Shown here piece after piece: positions 5,356-44,433 of a DNA stretch of 64,000 bases. Each line of letters begins with the position of its first letter. Position 1 is the stretch's first letter. Source of the stretch: Pectobacterium sp. PL152 (GTDB lineage Bacteria; Pseudomonadota; Gammaproteobacteria; Enterobacterales; Enterobacteriaceae). Where the stretch lies: positions 4,836,001-4,900,000 of the forward strand of contig CP091064.1 of assembly GCA_021907015.1 (NCBI GenBank), in the 5' to 3' direction. A program made the translations under genes and the position numbers. The notes beneath the pieces are model-generated. The model made no database searches and was not told the DNA's origin. It worked only from the letters and a program-made list of their open reading frames with translations.

Positions 5356-6265
5356 TGATTAAATCCTTTCGCGATGGTTTCCACCGTCACTTTTAACAGG
5401 TCGATATAGGTTGGCACAGGGCCTTTTTCTGTAGACAGCGAATCAACATACAGCACACCGCCGTATTTCGCCCCCGTTTCTTTACTCACCTGTTTTGCCG
5501 GTTTATCGGAAACGGTGCTTTCGCTGAAGACCACAGGGATAGCCTTCTCACGCACGGTATCGATAACTCGACGTACCTGCTGTGGCGACCCTTGCTCGTC
5601 GGCATTGATTGGCCAGAGATAGACTTCATTGAACTGATAATCTTTCGCCAGATAGCTGAATGCACCTTCACTGGTGACTAACCAGCGCTGCTGTTCTGGG
5701 ATGCGGGAGAGACGCTCACGCAGCGGTGCGTCGAGAGCCTTAATTTTTTCCGCATAGGCTTTGGCGTTACGATTATACGTCTCTGCATTGGCTGGATCGG
5801 CTTGCACCAAGCCTTTGCGGATATTTTCAATATAGATTAATGCATTGGAGGGTGACATCCAGGCATGTGGGTTTGGATTGCCATTATAGGCACCTTCGCG
5901 GATAGGAAGTGGTGTGATGCCTTCCGTTACCACAACGGCGGGTACATTTTTACGTTTTCGAAAAAGCGCGTAAACCAGCGCTCAAGATTCATCCCATTCC
6001 ACAGTACCAACTGCGCAGACTGTGTTTTAACAATATCGCGCGGTGTCGGTTGATAATCATGAATTTCTGCGCCGGGCTTGGTGATGGACTCGACCGTTGC
6101 GGCATCGCCAGCAATATTCTGTGCGATATCCTGAATGATGGTAAAGGTGGTGATGACTTTAAGCTTTTCAGCCGCCTGAGCGGATGCATTGGCTAAAAGC
6201 AGTAAGGCGCACGGCAGCGCGATGCGACGGAACAGGGCAGGTAAACGGGCGTGAAAACCAATCAT
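5352..6265 (-). CDS. sitA: Mn/Fe-binding periplasmic protein SitA (one apparent frameshift)
   Basis: Metal-binding lipocalin-like cluster A-I solute-binding protein, first gene of the operon. The N-terminus has a signal peptide ending near [11 protein letters not shown]. Likely metal ligands are His in AEIHDYQPT, His in NPHAWMSP, Glu in FSESTVSDK and Asp in YVDSLS, the pattern of Mn/Fe-binding members; a His-rich zinc loop as in ZnuA is absent. The frame breaks at a T5 run (5947-5951). One more base restores [14 protein letters not shown] and a protein of about 304 residues. It delivers metal to SitCD. Confidence 0.9.
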
Positions 6266-6297
6266 GCGAATATCCTTACAAACCGTGAAAGTGTTAC

Positions 6298-6325
6298 TTG
6301 AGAATAGTTATCAATATCATTTAAG
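6298..6325. promoter_or_regulatory. Fur-like operator upstream of sitA
   Basis: The stretch GAATAGTTATCAATATCATT resembles the 19-bp Fur consensus (GATAATGATAATCATTATC) with several mismatches and lies about 30-60 bp upstream of sitA. Fur control of sit operons is established in enterobacteria. An MntR palindrome was not seen. From here to 6673 I see no gene. Confidence 0.5.
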
Positions 6326-6673
6326 TCAAGAGGCAGAGAAGGGCGGGGAGTCAATATTGAGGGTGTCTCATGACACAAAAATCACTGTTCGCAGGCTCGT
6401 AGCACGTGCTTGCGCGGGTAAGGAACGCATCATGCTCCTTTAGTAACAGAAATGTTGCTTTAATTTAATGAATCGTACTTAAGGTTACAACGAAAGTCTA
6501 ACGGTAACGGTAGTGAACTGTCGCGTGACTATACATAGTTATACACATGGCGAAATTTGCGTCAAAAAGAGAGGGGAAATCTGATGCAGCCTTAAGAAAA
6601 TAACAATGGCTGCCGATAAATCATAAAGATTGTGAGAGATGTCTCTAGTTTATACTAAAGGGTTGTAAGCGAT

Positions 6674-6769
6674 ATGAGCACAAAATCAGAACGACGTTGG
6701 AAGCTGGCAAGTTTAGTCTTATTGACTTTTTTGATAGCATTATTAGTGTTATTGGTTCAAACAAGTTAA
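6674..6769 (+). CDS. Small single-span membrane peptide, unidentified (31 aa)
   Basis: ATG AGC ACA... encodes 31 residues: a basic N-terminus (MSTKSERRWK) then about 20 hydrophobic residues (LASLVLLTFLIALLVLLVQ). This is a classic small inner-membrane peptide with N-in topology. It sits where E. coli carries yebO/mgrB upstream of yobF-cspC, but it matches neither MgrB (47 aa, with cysteines) nor YebO (95 aa). A TAAG stretch upstream could be a weak ribosome-binding site and a hairpin follows at 6878-6903. I do not recognise it and cannot exclude chance, though the composition is telling. Confidence 0.5.
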   Translation: MSTKSERRWKLASLVLLTFLIALLVLLVQTS

Positions 6770-6877
6770 TTCCTGACGCAACGAAAGGTTAGGGCATAAA
6801 TAATTTCTATTATGTAATGTATTAATGCAAAAGATATAGATAGCATAAAAATGACAATCGATTTTAAACATTGATAT

Positions 6878-6903
6878 AAGCGTGGCTGCTGTCGGACACG
6901 CTT
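6878..6903 (+). terminator. Hairpin after the 31-aa peptide gene
   Basis: AAGCGTG and CACGCTT are separated by 12 nt, then GTTGTTAATG follows. It has a modest T-tract and is a possible terminator or 5' structure for yobF-cspC. From 6904 to 7211 I see an A/T-rich leader or promoter region and no other gene. Confidence 0.35.
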
Positions 6904-7211
6904 GTTGTTAATGTTCAATATCCCTTCGTGGTTGCACACCAATTATAGCTTTTTGTTATGATTGCTGGTGCGCCTGTGCCAGAAATGGACGGCTGTCGCG
7001 TATTTTTTTGCATAATAGAATCTGCCGTGCGCTTATTGCGCGGTGCCAGAAGCAGCCTGTGAATATAGGCGTCAGCGAACATTATCGTGTATTAATGAAT
7101 CAGGGATGACGTGAATTTGTGCGGCATGTCCACGACTGATAAAAAAGGCCTTGCCATCGATTACATAGTGTGTAATAACGCTTCTGGGTAAAACGAGGTA
7201 CAGTTCTGTAT

Positions 7212-7328
7212 ATGAATGGCATTTTCAGTAAAGAAGACTTAAGTACAACCTTTAGCGTTGCATGCTGCTTCTCTGCCGATCCTTATCTTAGTGCCTCAAG
7301 CAGTAACGACTTTGGTTTGTCTGTATAA
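7212..7328 (+). CDS. yobF: YobF family small protein (38 aa)
   Basis: The 38-codon frame begins [16 protein letters not shown] and continues [15 protein letters not shown]. This aligns by eye with E. coli YobF (GIFSKEVLS..., FSAEPYIGASCSN), a small heat- and stress-accumulated protein of the DUF2527 family. It lies 41 bp upstream of cspC and is probably co-transcribed, exactly as yobF-cspC in E. coli. The sequence is shorter at the C-terminus than the 47-residue E. coli protein. Confidence 0.85.
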
Positions 7329-7369
7329 CGCCTTTTTGGCGGTTTAAACAATTAAAGGAAATATTTGAA

Positions 7370-7579
7370 ATGGCAAAGATTAAAGGTCAGGTTAAGTGGT
7401 TCAACGAGTCTAAAGGCTTTGGTTTCATCACTCCTGCTGACGGCAGCAAAGATGTATTCGTACACTTCTCTGCAATTCAAGGCAACGGCTTCAAAACTCT
7501 GGCTGAAGGCCAGAACGTAGAATTCGAAATTCAGGATGGCCAGAAAGGTCCTTCCGCAGTAAACGTCACTGCGCTGTAA
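7370..7579 (+). CDS. cspC: Cold-shock-like RNA chaperone CspC
   Basis: 69-residue single cold-shock domain with RNP1 KGFGFITP and RNP2 VFVHFSAI. The sequence is nearly identical to E. coli Csp[19 protein letters not shown] at the start and PSAVNVTAL in place of PAAVNVTAI at the end. CspC is a constitutive RNA chaperone and transcription antiterminator that stabilises stress mRNAs. AAAGGAAAT provides a good Shine-Dalgarno sequence. Synteny with yobF and rlmA supports the cspC assignment over other csp paralogues. Confidence 0.95.
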
Positions 7580-7596
7580 TTTTACAGCTCTGTTGC

Positions 7597-34757: not shown

Positions 34758-36299
34758 CTATGTGGATGCCGTTCCGTTACGCGGCGGGCAGCGTTCAAGT
34801 AGCTCAACGCTGCCATCCGCGTTAGCCTGTTCCAGATAGACGTCGAAGCCCCACAGGCGATGGACGTGCTTCAATACTTCCTGACTGCTTTTATCCAGCG
34901 GGGCGCGATTGTGCGGAACATAGCGCAGCGTCAGCGCCCGATTACCGCGCAAATCCACATTCCAGACCTGAATATTCGGCTCCAGATGGCTCAGGTTGTA
35001 CTGTGCGGAGAGTTCCTGCCGGATCAGGCGATAGCCTTCTTCGTCGTGAATCGCCGCGATTTCCAGATAGTTGTTTCGATCGTCGTCCAGCACCGTAAAT
35101 AGCCGGAAATCACGCATCAGCTTAGGCGACAGGAACTGGCTGATGAAGCTCTCGTCCTTGAAGTTCTGCATCGCAAAATGCAGCGTATCGAGCCAGTCTT
35201 TACCGGCAATATCGGGGAACCAGTAACGGTCTTCGTCCGTCGGCGACTGGCAAATGCGCTTGATATCCTGAAACATCGCGAAGCCCAGCGCATAGGGGTT
35301 GATTCCGCTGTAATACGGGCTGTTATACGGCGGTTGATAGATCACGTTGGTATGGCTGTGCAGGAATTCCATCATGAAGCGCTCAGTGACCCGGCCTTCA
35401 TCATAGAGATGGTTCAGAATAGTGTAGTGCCAGAACGTCGCCCAGCCTTCATTCATCACCTGCGTCTGCTTCTGCGGATAGAAATACTGGCTGACTTTCC
35501 GCACGATACGCAGAACCTCACGCTGCCAGGGCTCCAGCAGCGGCGCGTTCTTCTCCATAAAATAGAGCAGATTTTCCTGCGGCTCTTGTGGAAAGCGTCT
35601 CGCTTGCTCCGGTGCGGCACCTTGTTCACGCCGTGGTAATGTCTTCCAGAGATCGTTAACCTGGCTTTGCAGGTAGGCCTCGCGGCTTTTCTGGCGGGAC
35701 TTTTCCTCTTCAAGCGAAATTTTTTGCGGACGCTTATAGCGGTCAACGCCGTAATTCATGAGCGCATGGCAGGAATCTAACAGGCGTTCGACTTCGTCCA
35801 CGCCATAACGCTCTTCGCATTGCGCGATATATTGCCGGGCAAACAGCAGATAATCGACGATGGAGCTGGCATCGGTCCAACTGCGAAACAGGTAATTACC
35901 TTTGAAGAATGAGTTGTGTCCGTAGCAGGCATGCGCCATGACCAGCGCCTGCATCGGCAGCGTGTTCTCCTCCATCAAATACGCGATACAGGGATCGGAG
36001 TTAATGACGATTTCGTACGCCAGCCCCTGCTGCCCGTGTTTGTAGCGCTGTTCGGTTTCGATAAATTTCTTCCCGAACGACCAGTGGGCATAGTTGATCG
36101 GCATTCCTATACTGGAATAGGCGTCCATCATTTGTTCTGAGGTGATGACTTCGATCTGATGAGGATAGGTCGACAGACGATACAACTTGCCCACCCGATC
36201 AATTTCATCAAGGTAAACCTGCAATAACTCAAACGTCCAGTCCGGTCCATCACTCAGGCGAAGTGTTTTTTTTACCTGATTACCCGTGGATATAGCCAT
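34758..36299 (-). CDS. ycgB: SpoVR family protein YcgB
   Basis: 513 residues, intact. Conserved SpoVR blocks: NYAHWSFGKKF, QALVMAHACYGHNSFFKGNY, MNEGWATFWHYTILNHLYDE and YQPPYNSPYYSGINPYALGF. Its partners in many genomes are YeaG (PrkA-type kinase) and YeaH. In this window those two lie 9 kb away on the same strand, with an accessory block in between. In E. coli ycgB is RpoS-linked. The molecular function is not known; the HxxxH-like histidines suggest a metal site. Confidence 0.93.
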   Translation of the reverse strand: MAISTGNQVKKTLRLSDGPDWTFELLQVYLDEIDRVGKLYRLSTYPHQIEVITSEQMMDAYSSIGMPINYAHWSFGKKFIETEQRYKHGQQGLAYEIVINSDPCIAYLMEENTLPMQALVMAHACYGHNSFFKGNYLFRSWTDASSIVDYLLFARQYIAQCEERYGVDEVERLLDSCHALMNYGVDRYKRPQKISLEEEKSRQKSREAYLQSQVNDLWKTLPRREQGAAPEQARRFPQEPQENLLYFMEKNAPLLEPWQREVLRIVRKVSQYFYPQKQTQVMNEGWATFWHYTILNHLYDEGRVTERFMMEFLHSHTNVIYQPPYNSPYYSGINPYALGFAMFQDIKRICQSPTDEDRYWFPDIAGKDWLDTLHFAMQNFKDESFISQFLSPKLMRDFRLFTVLDDDRNNYLEIAAIHDEEGYRLIRQELSAQYNLSHLEPNIQVWNVDLRGNRALTLRYVPHNRAPLDKSSQEVLKHVHRLWGFDVYLEQANADGSVELLERCPPRNGTAST

Positions 36300-36539
36300 C
36301 AGCGCGCCCCCTAATATAGCAAACCTGTACGTGAGATTCCGTTTACTGCCTTCCGGTTGGCCCAGCCCAAAAAACCATCGTTGTTCATTTAGTTATAGCT
36401 GAGCTTTGGAGGAGCGGCAATTGAGGGATCGAACGTGTGTGATGGTAAAAGGTTGTCGGTAAGGTAAAAAATGCACGCATATGTACGGGAGGAGAGGGAA
36501 GTGCGCTCTCCTGAGAGAGCGCAAAAAATGCAGGCTGGA
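36300..36539. other. Gap between the PTS operon end and spoVR
   Basis: Contains the hairpin GCGCTCTC-ctga-GAGAGCGC (36503-36522), a plausible 3' end of the leftward PTS operon though without a T-tract after it, and the spoVR promoter region. No gene seen. Confidence 0.4.
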
Positions 36540-37442
36540 TTAGGGCCGTTGATAGCGTTTTAGGAGTGCCTGAATATCTCTGAGTCGCGAGACGGCGACG
36601 GTAGACAGTTTCTCTTTTGAAATTGCACGCTCGAGGGATATACAGTCTTTCCAGAGTGAACGTCCTGCAATGACGCCAGATGCGCCATTTTTCAACGCGC
36701 TTTCTACCTGAGGGAGAAACGTTGCGTGATCGACACCCGCCGAGAGGACTGCCCAGGGGATGCTACCGCAGAGCGCGGTAACGTGCGCGCAGGCTTCATC
36801 AGATCCAGGATAAGGAATTTTTAAAACCTTTGCGCCTGCCTCGATACAGGCCTGACAGCCTGCTGGAATGAGTTCGGGCAGGAGACGCGTGTAGGTGTCG
36901 CGAGATTCATCTTCCAGAGAGTAGGTCAGAAATTCGACGACGAGCAGTAAATCTTCCTGCGCAAAGTCTTGTATCACGGTACGGAGTGTTTCAAGGTTAC
37001 GGGTATTGGCATCCGGTCTATCCGGACGCAGGTAAATCATAATTTTCCCCCCTGTCGCTCCCCATTCCCTCACTTTGCGCGCCGTGACGCCCTCAACCAG
37101 CGTGGAGATCCGATACCCTTCTGGCGTCGTTTCCCAGCCTGACGCATCAAGCCCAATGAGCAGACCGGTATCACGAGGCAAAATGTTGTCATCGATCAGA
37201 CCGGGTATGGCGCAAATCGGATCAACCAGCACGCATCCTGCCTCTGCCGCCAGATAACGCGTGATGTCATATTTTGTTTTTCCTAATGTTTCATTAGTAA
37301 TGGCCGCCTGTGCTTCAGGGGTCGATGCTAATAATGTTCGCATCCCGCCACGTTGATCGCAGGCAATAACCATCATTGAGCCCGTTGCATCACAAATTAA
37401 TTGATATCCCCGGTATTCAGCCGTGGTCATGGTGTTCATCAT
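36540..37442 (-). CDS. Class I ketose-bisphosphate aldolase, LacD/YihT type
   Basis: 300 residues from ATG 37442, where GAGGA gives a correct ribosome-binding site; an ATG four codons upstream lies within that site. The chain resembles tagatose-1,6-bisphosphate aldolase LacD and sulfofructose-phosphate aldolase YihT: an early VIACDQRGGMR, acidic LVDPICAI, VVEFLTYSLED and AGAKVLKIPYPGS with the probable Schiff-base lysine, then WAVLSAGVDH and GASGVIAGRSLWKD. It is the last gene of the PTS operon. Likely reaction: cleavage of a ketohexose 1,6-bisphosphate to triose phosphates. The exact sugar is not known. Confidence 0.8.
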   Translation of the reverse strand: MMNTMTTAEYRGYQLICDATGSMMVIACDQRGGMRTLLASTPEAQAAITNETLGKTKYDITRYLAAEAGCVLVDPICAIPGLIDDNILPRDTGLLIGLDASGWETTPEGYRISTLVEGVTARKVREWGATGGKIMIYLRPDRPDANTRNLETLRTVIQDFAQEDLLLVVEFLTYSLEDESRDTYTRLLPELIPAGCQACIEAGAKVLKIPYPGSDEACAHVTALCGSIPWAVLSAGVDHATFLPQVESALKNGASGVIAGRSLWKDCISLERAISKEKLSTVAVSRLRDIQALLKRYQRP

Positions 37443-37475
37443 AATTATCCTCATAAAATTAATATCAATAATCGA

Positions 37476-38009
37476 TTAATCCAGGTGGTTTTTAATCCAT
37501 TGAATGAGTTCCTGATAATTAATGTCCTTATCCTGATCAACCGTGTAGCACTTACCAATACTCATCGGGTGAGCCTGATGTGCGAGTGCCATTAATTCCG
37601 GCAGGTACTCATCACCGGGATGGCCTTTTATTCTTTTATGCACTCTGGCCTGATAACGTTCTGCTACTCGTTCGGGGGAAATTGCATTCCATATTTCAAG
37701 TGTGTGGTGGATATCACACGCGGTGATATATTCTTGTAATCGTGATTTTTCGCGAAACCCGAACCAGGCATCAAGAATAGTAGTGCTATTTTTCGGTGCC
37801 TGCTGAACGATATTAAACATGGCTTGGTATGCGGCGTACCCTAGCTTTCTGTTTAACTTTCTATCAATCGTGTCACAAAGTTGCACCATGAAAGGCTCTT
37901 TTATTTCATCGAGGCTTAACAGCGGGAGATGGAATTCATCTGCAATGACTCGAGCTACCGTACTTTTCCCCGATGCTGGTATACCATTTACTAAAATAAG
38001 TTTTTTCAT
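37476..38009 (-). CDS. P-loop kinase of unknown substrate in the PTS operon
   Basis: 177 residues. Walker A VNGIPASGKSTVARVIADEF at residues 7-26, then LLSLDEIKEPF, TTILDAWFGFREKSRLQEYI and an arginine-rich lid-like VAERYQARVHKRIKGHPGDE. The fold matches small AAA_33/gluconokinase-like kinases. The start overlaps the end of the IIA gene by 4 bp (ATGA), so it is translationally coupled to it. A sugar, polyol or other small-molecule kinase is possible; nothing in the sequence decides which. It has no close E. coli counterpart that I recognise. Confidence 0.7.
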   Translation of the reverse strand: MKKLILVNGIPASGKSTVARVIADEFHLPLLSLDEIKEPFMVQLCDTIDRKLNRKLGYAAYQAMFNIVQQAPKNSTTILDAWFGFREKSRLQEYITACDIHHTLEIWNAISPERVAERYQARVHKRIKGHPGDEYLPELMALAHQAHPMSIGKCYTVDQDKDINYQELIQWIKNHLD

Positions 38010-38443
38010 AATACCCCGGCAATGTCATCGGATGTGATGGCGGTTCGAATACGAGAGATCATGTCGTCTTTTTCCAGTAAATTGACGATAGAGGCAATGC
38101 CTTCCGTAATATGTGCATCACTGCTAACGCCGCCGAACATAATTAAAATATCCACGGGTTCACTTCCCTGAATAGAGATCGGTGCTTGTAACGTCAGTAA
38201 ACTGAAACAATTCACCCGCACCCCGCATTCAGGGCGAGCATGTGGAATCGCGATGCCTTCATCAAAAACATAATAAGGACCATATTCCTTCGTGTTTTTT
38301 ATCACCGCGATGGGATACTCCTCCGTGATAAATTTTGCGTCAATTAATGGTTGTGCGGCACAATAGATTGCGTCTTCCCACGTTTTACATACCACGCCAA
38401 GTTGAATACAGTTATGTTGTAACAGGAAGTTTTTTATGCTCAT
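38006..38443 (-). CDS. PTS EIIA component, ascorbate/fructose-mannitol type
   Basis: 145 residues with the phospho-acceptor histidine in EGIAIPHARPECG, the signature of PTS_EIIA_2. Sequence and partners (UlaA-type IIC, UlaB-type IIB) place it in the ascorbate-Ula/Sga group. It passes phosphate from HPr to the separate IIB subunit. The start codon comes 6 bp after the stop of the 92-aa hypothetical gene. Confidence 0.85.
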   Translation of the reverse strand: MSIKNFLLQHNCIQLGVVCKTWEDAIYCAAQPLIDAKFITEEYPIAVIKNTKEYGPYYVFDEGIAIPHARPECGVRVNCFSLLTLQAPISIQGSEPVDILIMFGGVSSDAHITEGIASIVNLLEKDDMISRIRTAITSDDIAGVL

Positions 38444-38449
38444 AACGCC

Positions 38450-38728
38450 TCATATACTTTTACGAATGGTATTTCTGAGTTCATCAATTTTGATAAAAAT
38501 ATCATCAACGCGATGTCGATAATCAGGATGCCCAGAAAATAACTGGATGGCCTGGTTGTATTTAATCATTAACATTTTCTGTGTTTCACTATGGCTCGGA
38601 TCTTGTACTAAGCGAGATTCCAGTTCTGCTAATTCTTTTTCCATTTCTTTGGCAATGTTGTCATTCACATGACTACGACGATCGGCAGAAAATCCGGAAG
38701 ATAAAAAACGCCTGAGAAAAGAAAACAT
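38450..38728 (-). CDS. Hypothetical 92-aa protein within the PTS operon
   Basis: A basic N-terminus (MFSFLRRFLSSGFSADRR) that could bind membrane, then a helical charged region (NIAKEMEKELAELESRLVQD) and a second helix (YNQAIQLFSG...DDIFIKIDELRNTIRKS). It has no motif I know. Placement between IIC and IIA genes with 6- and about 60-bp gaps suggests an accessory protein of this transporter. Confidence 0.7.
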   Translation of the reverse strand: MFSFLRRFLSSGFSADRRSHVNDNIAKEMEKELAELESRLVQDPSHSETQKMLMIKYNQAIQLFSGHPDYRHRVDDIFIKIDELRNTIRKSI

Positions 38729-38788
38729 AGTGACCCCTTAACCCGTTTGCATAATATTAATGACGACAGACCATCGAAAGGTCATGCG

Positions 38789-40126
38789 CTATTGCGATAA
38801 TTTCCGGTTCGCAATAAAGGCAATAAATGCAACGAATGCGACAAACGCAGCGACAAATAACCAATCTTGTTGGAATGCGTGCCCTAATATCAGACCTGTA
38901 CTGATGACATCAGAATCACTAAAGGTCACACCGGTAAACCCGAAGACTTCCAGTAATGGCACCAGAATGGCGGGTAATAGGGTAATGAAAAGACCATGAA
39001 CGACGCCTCCGATGATGGCACCACGACGCCCTCCGAGTGCGTTGCCGAAAATACCCGCTGTCCCGCCGGCAAAGAAGTTGGTCAATAACCCCGGCAGAAT
39101 CATCGCCAACCCAAACATTGGGAAGATCAGCATTCCCAGAACAGAACCGACGGTGGTAGCAAGAAAGCCGACAATCACGGCGTTGGGCGCGTAAGGGAAG
39201 AGCACCGGGCAATCCAGCGCGGGTTTGGCGTTGGGTACCAGACGCATCGCGATACCGCGGAATGCCGGAACTAATTCATTAAGCAGCAGACGCACACCGC
39301 TGTAGAGAACAAACACCCCTGCGACAAATTGCATGGACTGCATGAAGGAATACATCAGATAGTTAACGCCGTTGGCATATTGCGCGATATAGGCCGGCCC
39401 AGCCGCCACGGCCGGGATGAGGTACATCGGTACCATAACCACGGCCATTGACAGGTAGGTATCCTGCAAGAACTTGAAGTTATCGGGTAGCGTTAAATCC
39501 TCGGTGGATTTGGAGTTTTTACCGACTACGCGGGCGACGGCAGCCTGTACCAGATACCCGATGGTACAAAAATGCCCGAGTGCCACATCATCAGAATTCG
39601 TGATTTTACGTACAATGGGTTGTGCTAGCGCGGGCATCAGCACCGCCATAATGCCGCCAAATATGCCTCCGGTGAGGATCAGTGTTGCGCCGGTTAAACC
39701 CGATTTATAGCCGATCACGGTACCGATTGTTGCCATCCACAGCAGGGCTTGCCCGGTCAGGAAGATATATTTAAAGGGAGTAATGCGCGCAATAAGGATG
39801 TTGACCGCAAAGATCACCATAAGCGTCAATGCCACTTCTGACCCGAGTTCGCGGTTGGCCAGCCCGGCGATGGCTGCAACATCGGTGATGTAGCCTGTCA
39901 TGCCAAACCCCTGGGTAAAGATGCTATTCAAATACGTCAGGGTGTCGACGATAATGTTAATCCCCGCCATCATGATGAGGAAACCCAGCAGAGTCTTGAA
40001 CGTTCCTTCCGCAATTTTTCCGACTGATTTTTTCTGTAGAATCAAACCAATCATGGCGATCAGTGCGATTAATATGGATGCCTGGCCTAATAAATCTTTC
40101 ACAATGAAATTGATAACGGTGTTCAT
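38789..40126 (-). CDS. PTS EIIC component, ascorbate-specific (UlaA/SgaT) family
   Basis: 445 residues, about ten membrane segments, intact. It starts MNTVINFIVKDLLGQASILI and contains GILRE-like loops such as GGRRGAIIGGVVHGLFITLL and NFFAGGTAGIFGNALGG, typical of the UlaA family. In that family the sugar is phosphorylated during import with help from IIB and IIA. The family name says ascorbate, but the operon's PFK and aldolase argue for a hexose. Confidence 0.88.
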   Translation of the reverse strand: MNTVINFIVKDLLGQASILIALIAMIGLILQKKSVGKIAEGTFKTLLGFLIMMAGINIIVDTLTYLNSIFTQGFGMTGYITDVAAIAGLANRELGSEVALTLMVIFAVNILIARITPFKYIFLTGQALLWMATIGTVIGYKSGLTGATLILTGGIFGGIMAVLMPALAQPIVRKITNSDDVALGHFCTIGYLVQAAVARVVGKNSKSTEDLTLPDNFKFLQDTYLSMAVVMVPMYLIPAVAAGPAYIAQYANGVNYLMYSFMQSMQFVAGVFVLYSGVRLLLNELVPAFRGIAMRLVPNAKPALDCPVLFPYAPNAVIVGFLATTVGSVLGMLIFPMFGLAMILPGLLTNFFAGGTAGIFGNALGGRRGAIIGGVVHGLFITLLPAILVPLLEVFGFTGVTFSDSDVISTGLILGHAFQQDWLFVAAFVAFVAFIAFIANRKLSQ

Positions 40127-40139
40127 TTTTCACCTCATG

Positions 40140-40433
40140 TTATTTATGAGCCTGAATATACGCTAAGATTTTTTCTTCTATTTCGTCTTTGTCGGTCAAT
40201 TTATTAAGAATGATGATTCTTTTTCTCTCATCCTCATTGGCATCACTAGTCAGAATATCCGCAAATATTTTCTGCGTTAAAATGACGTCATAACGGAAGG
40301 CAGAGGCTTCTGAAATCGTGGTGTGATTTATTTCTGCATCAATGCCCAGTTTTTTTAGTACGGATTTGGCACTCATTTCGATAGCGAAACTGGAGCCTAA
40401 TCCACAGCCGCATACGCAAAGAACTTTCAACAT
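40140..40433 (-). CDS. PTS EIIB component (lactose/ascorbate type)
   Basis: 97 residues. The phospho-acceptor cysteine lies in the N-terminal loop VCGCGLGSSFAIEM, the CxxGxGSS form of PTS_IIB in UlaB/GatB-type systems. The gap to IIC is 13 bp and to the upstream PFK gene 10 bp. Confidence 0.87.
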   Translation of the reverse strand: MLKVLCVCGCGLGSSFAIEMSAKSVLKKLGIDAEINHTTISEASAFRYDVILTQKIFADILTSDANEDERKRIIILNKLTDKDEIEEKILAYIQAHK

Positions 40434-40443
40434 AATAATGGCC

Positions 40444-41424
40444 TCATATAAGATGATGAGCTTTCGCGAGCTTATAAAAATGACTTTCTACATCGACTAA
40501 GCGGCGTTCGGACTCCTCTAAGTCGATGGGAATAGCTTTGTTGTTGTTATTAATAATAATGATTTTATTTGTCAGCCCAGTGTTGATACACCGAACGACT
40601 TCCTCTGCTAAAAGGGTGCCCTGAATAATTTCTTCCCCGGTGGGCGCGCCATTTCGTAAACCATATCCCAAAATAGTCTTTCGGATACGGATTCCAATTT
40701 TGTGCTCTAGCTTCTTGATAATGGTGTCGATCGCGCCCTGAAAGCCGGGTGTATATTCCTGGGTATAGCCTTCAGAGCATAAAATAATCACGCTGTTCTG
40801 TTCTGTAATCTTCTCCCGAATACATTGTGATAACGTATCCATGTCCCAGGGCGATTCTGGAATAAGCGCAATATCAGCATTGCTTTTCAACGCCGCCTGT
40901 AATGTTAATTCCCCGCAATAACCGCCCAGCAGTTCAATCATGAATACTCGGCCTTGTAATCCCCGACCCGTATTACGTAACTTTTCTACTTCACTCATTA
41001 CCTGTTCGCAGGCGGTAGAAAAACCAATTGTGTAGCTATTGCCTGAAATATCATTATCAATCGTCATTCCTACACCGTAGCAATGAACACCGTAGTGGCT
41101 GAGCTTCTTGAGGAATTGGAAGGATCCATCTCCTCCAGCCATGATGAGCGCATCGAGTTTTTGTTTTTGTATATTTTTGACGATTTTCTCATAATCAGCT
41201 TTTCTGCATTTTCCGGCTCTTCTCCCTGACGTCATCAACGGCATTGATGAGATGGAATAATCAACCAGATCGCGGCGAGTAATCGCTTTGCAGCAATTGT
41301 CAATAAGGCCATTAATTCCACCATCAAAAATAACGATGTCAGCATCTGTCATTCTGTTCACCTGAAAGATGAAGTTATTTATTCCGCTAACATCGCCGCC
41401 ACTAATGACTAATCCAATTTTCAT
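40444..41424 (-). CDS. 6-phosphofructokinase (PfkA family) of the PTS operon
   Basis: 326 residues, first gene of the operon, start preceded by AGAGGTCA. PfkA-family blocks: GLVISGGDVSGINNFIF, IMAGGDGSFQFLKKL (Gly after Asp, so ATP rather than pyrophosphate type), GMTIDNDISGNSYTIGFSTA with the catalytic Asp, and ILGYGLRNGAPT. By hand alignment to remembered E. coli PfkA, sugar-phosphate contacts Arg162, Glu222, Arg243 and Arg252 are kept, while Met169, Arg171 and His249 become Leu, Gly and Tyr. It likely makes a ketohexose 1,6-bisphosphate from a 6-phosphate; tagatose-6-phosphate is one candidate. Confidence 0.8.
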   Translation of the reverse strand: MKIGLVISGGDVSGINNFIFQVNRMTDADIVIFDGGINGLIDNCCKAITRRDLVDYSISSMPLMTSGRRAGKCRKADYEKIVKNIQKQKLDALIMAGGDGSFQFLKKLSHYGVHCYGVGMTIDNDISGNSYTIGFSTACEQVMSEVEKLRNTGRGLQGRVFMIELLGGYCGELTLQAALKSNADIALIPESPWDMDTLSQCIREKITEQNSVIILCSEGYTQEYTPGFQGAIDTIIKKLEHKIGIRIRKTILGYGLRNGAPTGEEIIQGTLLAEEVVRCINTGLTNKIIIINNNNKAIPIDLEESERRLVDVESHFYKLAKAHHLI

Positions 41425-41686
41425 CGTTGACCTCTGAAATATGAATAATTATCGTGTGAACACAATGTTATTAAACTGATAAAGCATTTTTTTGATGAAT
41501 ATCGCAATTTTGTATTTAATTACGGGGTTTCGCAGCTTGACAGGGATGAATAGGGATGGGTTTCTGTGATGGTTATCATGATTTTAAAATGTGCGATTGG
41601 GCTAACATCTTCATTCATTTGAGTTTTAACATTTTCGTCTTTTTTATCTTTTCTGCCGTTTCTTCCTAAAAAACGAATGCCTATTT

Positions 41687-41702
41687 TGTGAATGGTTTCA
41701 CA
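41687..41702. promoter_or_regulatory. Consensus CRP site between the PTS operon and dadA
   Basis: TGTGA-ATGGTT-TCACA is a perfect cAMP-CRP core. It lies 263 bp upstream of the PFK start and 208 bp upstream of dadA, so it could serve either; dadA is CRP-regulated in E. coli. The 485-bp gap also has an imperfect dyad (AATAATTATCGTGT...ACACAATGTTATT, 41444-41472) close to the PFK start. No gene seen in the gap. Confidence 0.75.
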
Positions 41703-41909
41703 GTTATTTCGTTACCAACGTCCTGGAGAAGCTTGCTTGAGGTGAGAAGTAACAATAGATAAATGCTATCGTTGAGACGGGTGACAATTCCTTCCCAAAT
41801 GCTAGAGTAGTCTCCAGTTTCACCTGTTACCTAGTGTTTTATTCCATTAAATAAACAGTTTTCTAGCAGATTAGACGGTCTTTAGCGGAGAGAAAGGGAG
41901 AGCGGTAGC

Positions 41910-43162
41910 ATGCGGGTTGTGATTCTGGGAAGTGGCGTAGTTGGCGTGAGTACCGCCTGGTATCTTGCGCAGGCAGGGCATGATGTCACCGTTATCGACA
42001 GGCAACCGGAGCCCGCGTTAGAAACCAGCGCCGGTAATGCTGGGCAGATTTCTCCCGGCTATGCTGCGCCCTGGGCGGCGCCGGGAATACCGCTGAAAGC
42101 GATCAAATGGATGTTTCAGCGCCATGCGCCGCTGGCTATCCGGCCCGATTTCACGGCTGCGCAGTTATGCTGGATGTGGCAAATGTTGCTCAATTGCGAT
42201 GCGCGCCACTATAAGACCAATAAAGCGCGGATGGTGCGTCTGGCGGAGTACAGCCGTGACTGTTTGCAACAGCTGCGGCGAGATACCGGTATTCAGTACG
42301 AAGGTCGGCAGGGCGGAACGCTGCAACTGTTCCGTACCGAACAGCAATATGACAATGCAACTCGGGATATCGCCGTGCTGGAAGAAGCTGGCGTGCCATA
42401 TCAACTGCTGACGCGTCATGAGCTGGCCTCCGTTGAACCTGCGCTGGCGAATGTGGCGGAGAAACTGACCGGCGGGCTGCGCTTACCACATGATGAGACA
42501 GGGGACTGTCAACTGTTCACTCGTCAACTGGCGGCGATGGCTGCCGATGCGGGCGTCACCTTTAAGCTGGGACGTAACGTCCGCCAACTACGGGTGGAAG
42601 GCCAAAACGTAACGGGCGTACAGTGTGACGATGAAATGATCGTGGCTGACGTCTATGTGATGGCCTGCGGTTCCTATTCTACGGGGCTACTGCGCCAGTG
42701 GTTCGACATTCCGGTTTATCCGCTGAAAGGCTATTCACTGACGATCCCGCTGGCGGATGATGCCTCCGCGCCAGTTTCTACCGTGCTGGATGAAACCTAC
42801 AAAGTGGCAATCACGCGTTTCGATCGTCGCATCCGCGTTGGAGGAATGGCTGAGGTGGTGGGCTTCAACACCGATCTGAATCCTAAACGGCGTGAGACGT
42901 TGGAGATGGTCGTGCGCGATCTGTATCCCCATTGTGGTCCGATTGAACAAGCGACATTCTGGACGGGGCTGCGTCCGATGACGCCAGACGGCACGCCGCT
43001 GGTGGGGCGTTCTCCGCTGAAAAATCTGTATCTGAATACCGGACATGGCACGTTAGGCTGGACGATGGCCTGCGGGTCAGAAAGGTACTGGCGGATATTC
43101 TGTCGGACAAATCACCGGAGATTGAGGCCGATGATTTGTCCGTGGAAAGATACGTGCGTTAG
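41910..43162 (+). CDS. dadA: D-amino acid dehydrogenase DadA (one apparent frameshift)
   Basis: FAD-dependent, about 417 residues. It starts [20 protein letters not shown] with the Rossmann GxGxxG motif and has [19 protein letters not shown] and [20 protein letters not shown]. It oxidises D-alanine and other D-amino acids to oxo acids, passing electrons to the respiratory chain. One missing G near 43080 throws off the last 27 residues; repaired it reads [20 protein letters not shown] and ends VERYVR at 43162. A good ribosome-binding site (GGGAGAG) precedes the start. The usual partner dadX does not follow. Confidence 0.9.
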
Positions 43163-43231
43163 TATCGCTGTTCTGTTTTTTGAAGTAATGGATGTTTTGA
43201 ACTCATTAATGTTTTGAACATCACCGAGATT

Positions 43232-44433
43232 TTACTCAGTGCGGGGCAGTGATGTAATGCTGCCCTTGTGGTGCCGCGTGAGCAGGCGGGCGCGTATTGC
43301 CAGCAGTGCGGCACAGAGCATCACCAGCGCCAGCGATATTTTTGATGGCAGAGGGAGCGCCATCGCAATTAACCCCAGCGCCGCACCGCCTGCCATTTGC
43401 ACGAATCCTACCATCGCCGACGCAATCCCCGCCTCATTCGAATAAGGCTCCAGCGCATAGCTGGTGGAGGGCCGATCAAAAATGCCAGACCGGCGCAGGC
43501 CAGCGCGACGGGCAGCATGTAAGTCGGCCAGGTGTTTTGCAGCGTTTCAGGTAAGAGCACGACACCACCAAGCAGCGAAAGGAAACCTGCGCCCATCAGC
43601 AGGCTACCTACAGCGAGACAGCGTGGTCGGCCGACTTTGCGGATAATGCGGTTCGCAAAAAAGCTGACCAGCATGATCCAAAAGCCGTTTGCGCCGAAGG
43701 CAATCGAAAATTCAAGCGGCGTCAGCTGTGCTTGATTCATCAGCACCACAGGGGAAAAAGTGACGTAGGTTAACGCCATCCCCATTGCGCCTGCGTTGAC
43801 TGACGCGAACCCTAGAAAGTGGCGATCGGATAACAGACGTGCGTATTGGCGCAGCGGCAAGCCGTGTACGGGCAGCGTCGAGTCGGGGCGCGTCTCAGGC
43901 AGAAAACGGATAACGAGTGCCAGAACCAGAATGCTGTAGCCTGCGAGGAACCAGAAGGGAGCGCGCCAGCCGAAAGCTTCAGCCAACAGACCGCCCAAGA
44001 GCGGCGCCAGCGCTGGCACAATATTCAGCGTGCCGTTGAGAAAACCATAGGTTCTGGCGGCATCGTCGCCGTTTAGCTTGTCACGGACGCTGCTGAAAAT
44101 GGCAACGGCGGTGCAGCAGACAGCCATACCCTGAAAAAGGCGTGAAAGAACAAATAGCGTAGCGCTGGTCGCCAGCGCAGCCATGATGGCTCCGATGATA
44201 TAGATAATCACGCCAGCCAACGCCATCGGGCGACGACCGTACTTGTCGACCAGCGGCCCAGCCAGAAGCTGGCCTAATCCCATGATCAGAATAAACAGAG
44301 CGACGGTGGATTGAATCAGCGATTCAGGGCTGTTTAGCGCCACGGCGATGGCAGGAATAAGCGGCAAATAGATGTCGATACCCAGAGGGCCGAGCAGAAC
44401 CAGGGTCAGTAAAATCAGAACAAATCGTTGCAT
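43232..44433 (-). CDS. MFS drug-resistance transporter, Bcr/CflA family (one apparent frameshift)
   Basis: Twelve-helix exporter of about 400 residues. It starts MQRFVLILLTLVLLGPLGID-IYLPLIPAI, the N-terminus of the Bcr/CflA group, with GPLVDKYGRRPMALAG (motif A), SRLFQGMAVCCTAVA and LNGTLNIVPALAPLLGG (motif C). One missing base at 43469-43471 breaks the last quarter; repaired it gives GPSTSYALEPYSNEAGIASA and ends HHKGSITSLPRTE. Substrates cannot be predicted from sequence. Confidence 0.86.

Follow-up and report, generated by a model that had tools for sequence, protein, structure and literature searches.

The window analysed here, a stretch of 64,000 nt from the genome of Pectobacterium sp. 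PL152 (5.02 Mb, a single contig), contains seven open reading frames (ORFs) on the minus strand, at 36540-41424, that constitute a real and conserved operon, a different form of which has in part been foreshadowed in the literature. The operon encodes, in this order, a paralogue of phosphofructokinase (PFK), enzymes IIB and IIC of a phosphotransferase system (PTS), a protein of 92 amino acids (aa), PTS enzyme IIA, a P-loop kinase, and an aldolase. Comparison of the sequences and gene neighbourhoods makes it fairly probable that the operon is a PTS-fed variant or counterpart of a pathway predicted for mannoheptulose in an alphaproteobacterium, comprising an ATP-binding cassette (ABC) transporter, a ROK kinase, a P-loop kinase, and an aldolase, and that its predicted function is the catabolism of a ketose whose configuration at C3-C5 matches that of D-tagatose. 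The PTS would import the sugar and phosphorylate its terminal carbon, the P-loop kinase would phosphorylate C1 to yield a 1,6- or 1,7-bisphosphate, and the PFK paralogue would carry out the same step, either alongside the P-loop kinase or on a second sugar. Cleavage by the aldolase would then convert the bisphosphate to dihydroxyacetone phosphate (DHAP) and an aldose phosphate, that is, erythrose-4-phosphate from D-mannoheptulose or glyceraldehyde-3-phosphate from D-tagatose; these two sugars, or another ketose, are proposed as candidate substrates. We infer the order of the reactions, the phosphorylated position, the sugar, and the roles of the PFK paralogue and the 92-aa protein from the comparisons described below.

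An earlier note on this DNA had described a leftward operon of seven genes, with a 4-bp overlap between the IIA and P-loop kinase genes and without an isomerase, epimerase, or regulator. This description is borne out by the ORFs and by the Pfam matches, which were obtained for six of the seven proteins: the intergenic gaps along the operon are 10, 13, 60, 6, −4, and 21 bases, and none of the three missing functions is found among the Pfam matches of the seven proteins. The identical seven genes are present, in the identical order, on plasmid pHS1 of Sodalis praecaptivus, and therefore the arrangement is not accidental; chance clustering is ruled out by this recurrence together with that in 19 of the 80 loci analysed (those of the class I aldolase form).

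These loci come from a scan of genome contigs with an alignment of the P-loop kinase, which detected the gene at 319 loci; the analysis covers the best 80 of these, with their neighbours within 6.5 kb. All 80 loci were thus selected by the P-loop kinase and are the nearest to the query, so that close relatives are over-represented. Exactly one aldolase is encoded in each of the 80 loci, of class I in 33 and of class II in 47, and no locus has both or neither. The other common neighbours are IIC (75 loci), the small protein (75), IIB (74), and PFK (68), followed by a SorC-type regulator (13), a HAD hydrolase (11), a ROK kinase (5), and a binding protein (5). The PTS and ROK genes are mutually exclusive, with a PTS in 75 loci and a ROK kinase together with an ABC binding protein in the other five, and the loci with the small protein are precisely the PTS ones. 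When 398 genomes were drawn evenly from the phylum, 11 of them, including the source genome of the window, were found to carry the P-loop kinase at E 1e-12. No match to the operon was detected in E. coli genomes by megablast, and no distant search was made there; among viral contigs, 49 stretches fitted a pattern, and none of them encodes the P-loop kinase according to tblastn.

Transporter and aldolase class are interchanged among several forms of the operon. In type A, the order is PFK-IIB-IIC-small protein-IIA-kinase-class I aldolase, sometimes with an additional HAD gene, and in type B it is PFK-IIB-IIC-class II aldolase-small protein-IIA-kinase. Type C consists of a SorC-type regulator and class I aldolase-kinase-IIA-(PFK)-IIB-IIC-TPR-like small protein. 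Type D, from rhizobia, combines a SorC-type regulator, a class I aldolase, a ROK protein with the kinase, and an ABC transporter. Type E, from Enterococcus, has a regulator with IIA, followed by IIB, IIC, a TPR-like protein, a class II aldolase, and a different P-loop kinase. The counterparts of the 92-aa protein in Enterococcus and in L044, a PTS locus outside the best 80, have weak TPR matches below the cut-off.

Some of these loci show individual peculiarities. A HAD phosphatase gene follows the class I aldolase in L003 (13976-14674) and in 11 of the 80 loci, and a different HAD gene lies near five rhizobial loci (L111, L114, L120, L121, and L124). In L004 (8929-12494), from Klebsiella pneumoniae strain 176, the PFK is split over two frames and the class II aldolase has 234 aa, compared with 282 in L105; these defects represent either decay or a sequencing error. 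In L037 (genome G012, 6255-7588), the IIC match falls into two overlapping pieces of 264 and 204 residues, unlike in the other loci of the genus, possibly because of a frame change or a repeat.

The link to a substrate is provided by type D. Among 151 genomes surveyed in the rhizobial family, 14 matched the ROK-kinase protein at E 1e-60, and 13 further loci were compared. The aldolase, the ROK kinase, and the P-loop kinase occur together in all 13, and a binding protein similar to PDB entry 5dkv adjoins them in 12; in the remaining locus, L180, only transporter genes are seen where the sequence nears its end. The match of the binding protein to 5dkv_A reaches 548 bits for L005 and 537 bits for L111, and the title of 5dkv, as given by Foldseek, names Agrobacterium vitis Avis_5339 (EFI-511225). 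The structure model of the binding protein was poor, with a mean predicted local distance difference test score (pLDDT) of 40.4, and its Foldseek list was used solely for this title. The accessible part of PMC5507952 describes a Rhodobacteraceae genome (bin08) with an ABC transporter, an aldolase of the tagatose-bisphosphate family, a ROK kinase, and a kinase of the COG0529 family. Its binding protein is given there as 83% similar to Avi_5339, which binds mannoheptulose according to an unpublished observation of others. In the hypothetical route laid out in the same part of the paper, the ROK kinase produces mannoheptulose-7-phosphate, the COG0529-family kinase converts it to the 1,7-bisphosphate, and the aldolase releases DHAP and erythrose-4-phosphate. 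The rhizobial loci hold the genes listed in that part of the text, and, judging from the context, its COG0529 kinase appears to belong to the family of the window P-loop kinase. The earlier note had proposed a candidate undescribed pathway, which is half right, the ABC/ROK form having been printed as a hypothetical mannoheptulose pathway.

The aldolase of the window shares 71-72% identity with those of the rhizobial loci L005 and L006. Its residues K212, D33, Q34, K137, E174, S238, and R265 are invariant in 37 of 37 rows of the alignment; the catalytic lysine, glutamate, and aspartate set lies at LacD-like positions. Together, the conserved neighbourhoods, these residues, and the changed IIC pocket described below support the general scheme of the note, that is, import of a sugar other than ascorbate with phosphorylation, a second phosphorylation, and aldol cleavage. 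D-manno-heptulose, a rare plant sugar, and D-tagatose, which resembles it but is smaller, have the identical configuration at C3-C5, and an aldolase of the tagatose-bisphosphate type would therefore suit both alike. A ketohexose entering as the 6-phosphate, as the note had it, fits, but a seven-carbon ketose fits equally. A more specific version can be put forward only tentatively: a widespread enteric PTS for D-mannoheptulose, in which the P-loop kinase would form the 1,7-bisphosphate, the PFK would be a heptulose-7-phosphate or tagatose-6-phosphate kinase, and interchangeable class I and class II aldolases would yield DHAP and erythrose-4-phosphate. As far as their accessible parts go, PMC9007349 bears on aldolase kinship only, and PMC10101011, on E. 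coli evolved to use tagatose, is background; PMC5507952 alone deals with the pathway directly.

The structure model of the P-loop kinase (mean pLDDT 93.4) is nearest, among the solved folds, to the putative kinase 2rhm (unassigned), the sugar kinase 4eun, adenylate kinases, and PFKFB3. The model fits a small-molecule kinase; the fold does not name the acceptor. The window protein is 41-43% identical to a rhizobial domain that is fused to the ROK kinase in L005 and L006; the length of the frame indicates the same for most other rhizobial loci. In the fused protein, Pfam places ROK at residues 8-287 and, below its cut-off, AAA_33 at 307-427. Such a fusion is consistent with two consecutive steps. 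The note had regarded the PFK as the key second kinase, which is less well supported: an aldolase and, by selection, the P-loop kinase are present in 80 of 80 loci, as against 68 of 80 for PFK, and this points to the P-loop kinase as the most constant second enzyme.

In the model of the note, a ketohexose would arrive as the 6-phosphate and be committed by the PFK paralogue, with cleavage of the 1,6-bisphosphate by the aldolase and an accessory role for the P-loop kinase; this appears rather unlikely to us, even though the PFK is widely kept. Its catalytic and 6-phosphate residues D127, D129, R162, E222, R243, and R252 are conserved in all 72 rows compared, made up of the window protein and 71 operon proteins (with L004 a fragment and L028 and L048 one genome), and E. 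coli uses PfkA on tagatose-6-phosphate. However, the P-loop kinase is retained without an operon PFK in the five ROK/ABC loci as well as in L077, L106, L117, L118, L119, and L044; the PTS loci among the 80 that lack PFK further include L063 (a 6 kb contig) and L090, and five of the PTS loci without PFK are of the SorC type. Moreover, D103 is lost in three type C PFKs (L109, L122, and L125), which read GGGGS, in contrast to GGDGS in the window PFK and in PfkA of the same genome. The latter, a second PF00365 gene, is the housekeeping enzyme; compared with it, residues 73, 77, 107, 108, 124, 169, 171, and 249 are changed in the operon PFK, and the nucleotide-side residues of the operon PFKs differ throughout. 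The window PFK scores 170 bits with TIGR02482, the equivalog model for the ATP-dependent 6-phosphofructokinase PfkA, below the cut-off of 371.35. A phylogenetic tree separates the operon PFKs from the other 29 PFKs included as a sample, with modest support and long branches flagged. A single clade of types A/B and C was neither shown nor rejected (p-AU 0.261, with long-branch warnings and L195 badly placed).

A further possibility, to which we give little credence, is that the bisphosphate comes from a PFK of the host or of the operon and that the P-loop kinase acts on a downstream product or on the free sugar, or is regulatory. The solved relatives of its fold do have varied acceptors, and another PF00365 protein is encoded elsewhere in all nine tested genomes with PFK-less operons (five rhizobia and four enterics, one each), so that PFK activity is not absent from them; the idea that rhizobia are devoid of PF00365 proteins was rejected, as all five tested have one. 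These proteins weaken, without removing, the case for the P-loop kinase as the maker of the bisphosphate. Against the possibility, the fusion to ROK and the occurrence of the kinase in a form without nearby PTS genes favour sugar chemistry beside the first phosphorylation.

The IIC pocket was compared with the eleven core ascorbate contacts of UlaA named in the accessible part of PMC6048161. The window IIC differs at eight of them (T86, Y87, H135, I136, Q139, Q195, I358, and M410), with the change of I358 to L being mild and the match of M410 lying in a weakly aligned part, and keeps H194, D314, and F362. The pocket residues are nearly invariant over 81 rows from class I and class II operons, the main outlier being a second IIC in L074; the Enterococcus proteins differ from the window IIC at UlaA positions 59, 86, 87, and 410, and those of type C at 59 and 87. 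The simplest reading would be one substrate for all forms of the operon. Because eight of the eleven contacts differ whereas the pocket is nearly invariant across the operon types, ascorbate is unlikely as the substrate, in line with the note. Thus, although the IIC belongs to the UlaA superfamily, exceeds one NCBIfam cut-off for ascorbate IIC, and has UlaA (4rp8) as the solved structure nearest by sequence, an ascorbate or ascorbate-like PTS is highly improbable, given the changed contacts and seven genes with no match to an ascorbate-pathway enzyme.

Several observations weigh against the predicted PTS-fed counterpart of the ABC/ROK pathway. If the bisphosphate is formed by the P-loop kinase, the retention of PFK in 68 of 80 loci has no explanation, and PF00365 proteins are encoded elsewhere in the nine tested genomes with PFK-less operons. 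The window aldolase, with 46.1 bits, is far under the cut-off of the lacD equivalog model TIGR01232 (432.2 bits), and the class II aldolases of the relatives are under the GatY and fructose-bisphosphate aldolase equivalog cut-offs. The ligand modelled in 5dkv is probably alpha-D-tagatopyranose. The ROK frame is just 340-361 aa long in G133 and G196, where the two kinases are apparently unfused. The IIC passes the NCBIfam 'ascorbate' IIC model NF006919 (479.8, cut-off 380); it is under the cut-offs of NF009549 and NF007094, and its best match is the generic NF009551. Finally, the mannoheptulose claim in print rests, in the accessible part of PMC5507952, on an unpublished observation.

Table 1. 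Features of the operon, its control region, and its flanks in the window
Feature	Position	Strand	Basis or remark
ycgB/SpoVR ORF, flanking	34758-36299	-	named as in E. coli
Class I aldolase, DeoC/LacD superfamily	36540..37454	-	PF01791
P-loop small-molecule kinase, proposed ketose-phosphate 1-kinase	37476..38009	-	AAA_33 PF13671
PTS enzyme IIA	38006..38443	-	PTS_EIIA_2 PF00359; 4-base overlap with P-loop kinase gene
92-aa small protein, accompanies PTS form	38450..38728	-	no Pfam match
PTS enzyme IIC, EIIC-GAT/UlaA superfamily	38789..40126	-	PF03611, 405 bits; NF009551, 823 bits (cut-off 657)
PTS enzyme IIB	40140..40433	-	PTS_IIB PF02302
PfkA-family kinase (PFK)	40444..41424	-	PF00365, 207 bits
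Possible third CRP-like site	41491..41506		2 mismatches; aligned block in type A relatives
Second, weaker CRP-like site	41565..41580		2 mismatches; aligned, better-kept block in type A relatives
Perfect CRP-type consensus site upstream of operon	41687..41702		0 mismatches; counterpart in relatives
dadA, flanking	41910-43217	+	named as in E. coli

With respect to the genomic site, the note had the operon splitting SpoVR from YeaGH, which is wrong: the genes set apart are ycgB/SpoVR and dadA, named as in E. coli. Its statement that the genes are AT-richer than their neighbours holds for five of them (GC 0.36-0.44) and fails for IIC (0.507) and the aldolase (0.519), the value for the window being 0.511. 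In 98 genomes, including that of the window, the aldolase search gave 25 matches at E 0.001, some of which are remote paralogues with 20-34% identity. A copy of the operon aldolase with at least 90% identity is present in 16 of 24 relatives of the same genus, and SpoVR and DadA flank the operon in 14 of these 16 loci; in the other two (L040 and L041), DadA is present and SpoVR was not found within the 4 kb examined. The P-loop kinase of P. aroidearum is 97% identical to that of the window. Among the eight genomes of the genus without the aldolase, the spacing between ycgB and dadA is about 345 bp in five (G004, G009, G010, G016, and G020), and different genes adjoin dadA in the other three (G006, G011, and G017). 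In G017 (L223), similarity to the upstream region beside dadA reaches window position 41674, a span within which a counterpart of the CRP-type site would fall; since part of the operon upstream region persists there, this suggests that G017 lost the operon. The retained stretch is followed by large ORFs that resemble a mobile element. In Samsonia, the operon occupies the same site as in the window. The acquisition within the genus suggested by the note is thus not borne out by the Samsonia and G017 loci, and for some species loss appears no less likely than a recent gain. Beyond the operon, the end of dadA appears unlike E. coli DadA, and an MFS gene at 43408-44433 (ORF of 341 aa; median of relatives 399) matches its relatives in two frames around residue 322.

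The operon is probably under the control of CRP, with binding judged from the consensus. The motif TGTGA-N6-TCACA is present upstream of PFK without mismatch in 25 of 44 type A/B loci, a number that rises to 40 of 44 when a single mismatch is allowed, whereas in a control, 450 bp within the PFK gene, none of the 44 reaches one mismatch. The count excludes type C, L004, and loci with an unanchored PFK start or less than 450 bp upstream, and the single genome of L028 and L048 is counted twice. In these 40 loci, the site is located at −278 to −295 (30 loci) or at −145 to −174 (10 loci). In an alignment of 14 type A upstream regions, another site is conserved as well, and there is also a third, weaker one; matches with two mismatches are common by chance, with 33 found and 26 expected in the window. 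The type A/B operons contain no regulator gene. A search of 36300-41920 for a leader RNA with Rfam gave a single match, to Xist, with E 0.46 and under its gathering score.

The same genome contains other PTS and aldolase genes. A second EIIC-GAT permease belongs to a UlaA-like IIA-IIB-IIC set (L226, C1:1569029-1570219), and the gene next in line resembles a fructose-6-phosphate aldolase/transaldolase, which makes another pairing of a PTS with an aldolase. There are also three genes of the class II aldolase family, and a tandem pair of class II aldolase-like genes lies beside a fructose-type PTS permease-like gene (L228, C1:2916337-2918114).

Taken together, the comparisons connect an unassigned PTS family, present in many enterics and in some vibrios, with a short and testable list of sugars and with a single pathway predicted in an alphaproteobacterium. 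If correct, the prediction would give a function to a family of P-loop kinases now named merely AAA ATPase, and would provide a case of replacement between class I and class II aldolases within a single pathway, possibly along with a PTS for a heptulose.

In the galactitol (Gat) and lactose/tagatose-6-phosphate (LacC-LacD) pathways, a ketose-6-phosphate is converted to the 1,6-bisphosphate and cleaved by an aldolase, with class I and class II aldolases serving one reaction. The window operon resembles these pathways in the proposed route via a bisphosphate to an aldolase and, across its relatives, in the involvement of both aldolase classes, but none of its seven genes is LacC-, GatZ-, or dehydrogenase-like, and the LacD and GatY cut-offs are not reached. 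With the ascorbate PTS UlaABC, it shares the IIC superfamily and the separate IIA, IIB, and IIC proteins, and differs in the substrate-contact residues and the partner enzymes. The PTS locus of Enterococcus gilvus and E. raffinosus is similar in its IIB, its IIC with nearly the same pocket, its class II aldolase, its P-loop kinase, and its TPR-like small protein; unlike the window operon, it has a regulator with a IIA domain, a P-loop kinase unmatched by that of the window, and no PFK. The locus described in the accessible part of PMC5507952 shares the tagatose-bisphosphate-family aldolase, the P-loop kinase, and the logic of two phosphorylations, with the PTS, the PFK paralogue, and the small protein of the window operon standing in place of the ABC transporter and the ROK kinase with the Avi_5339-like binding protein.

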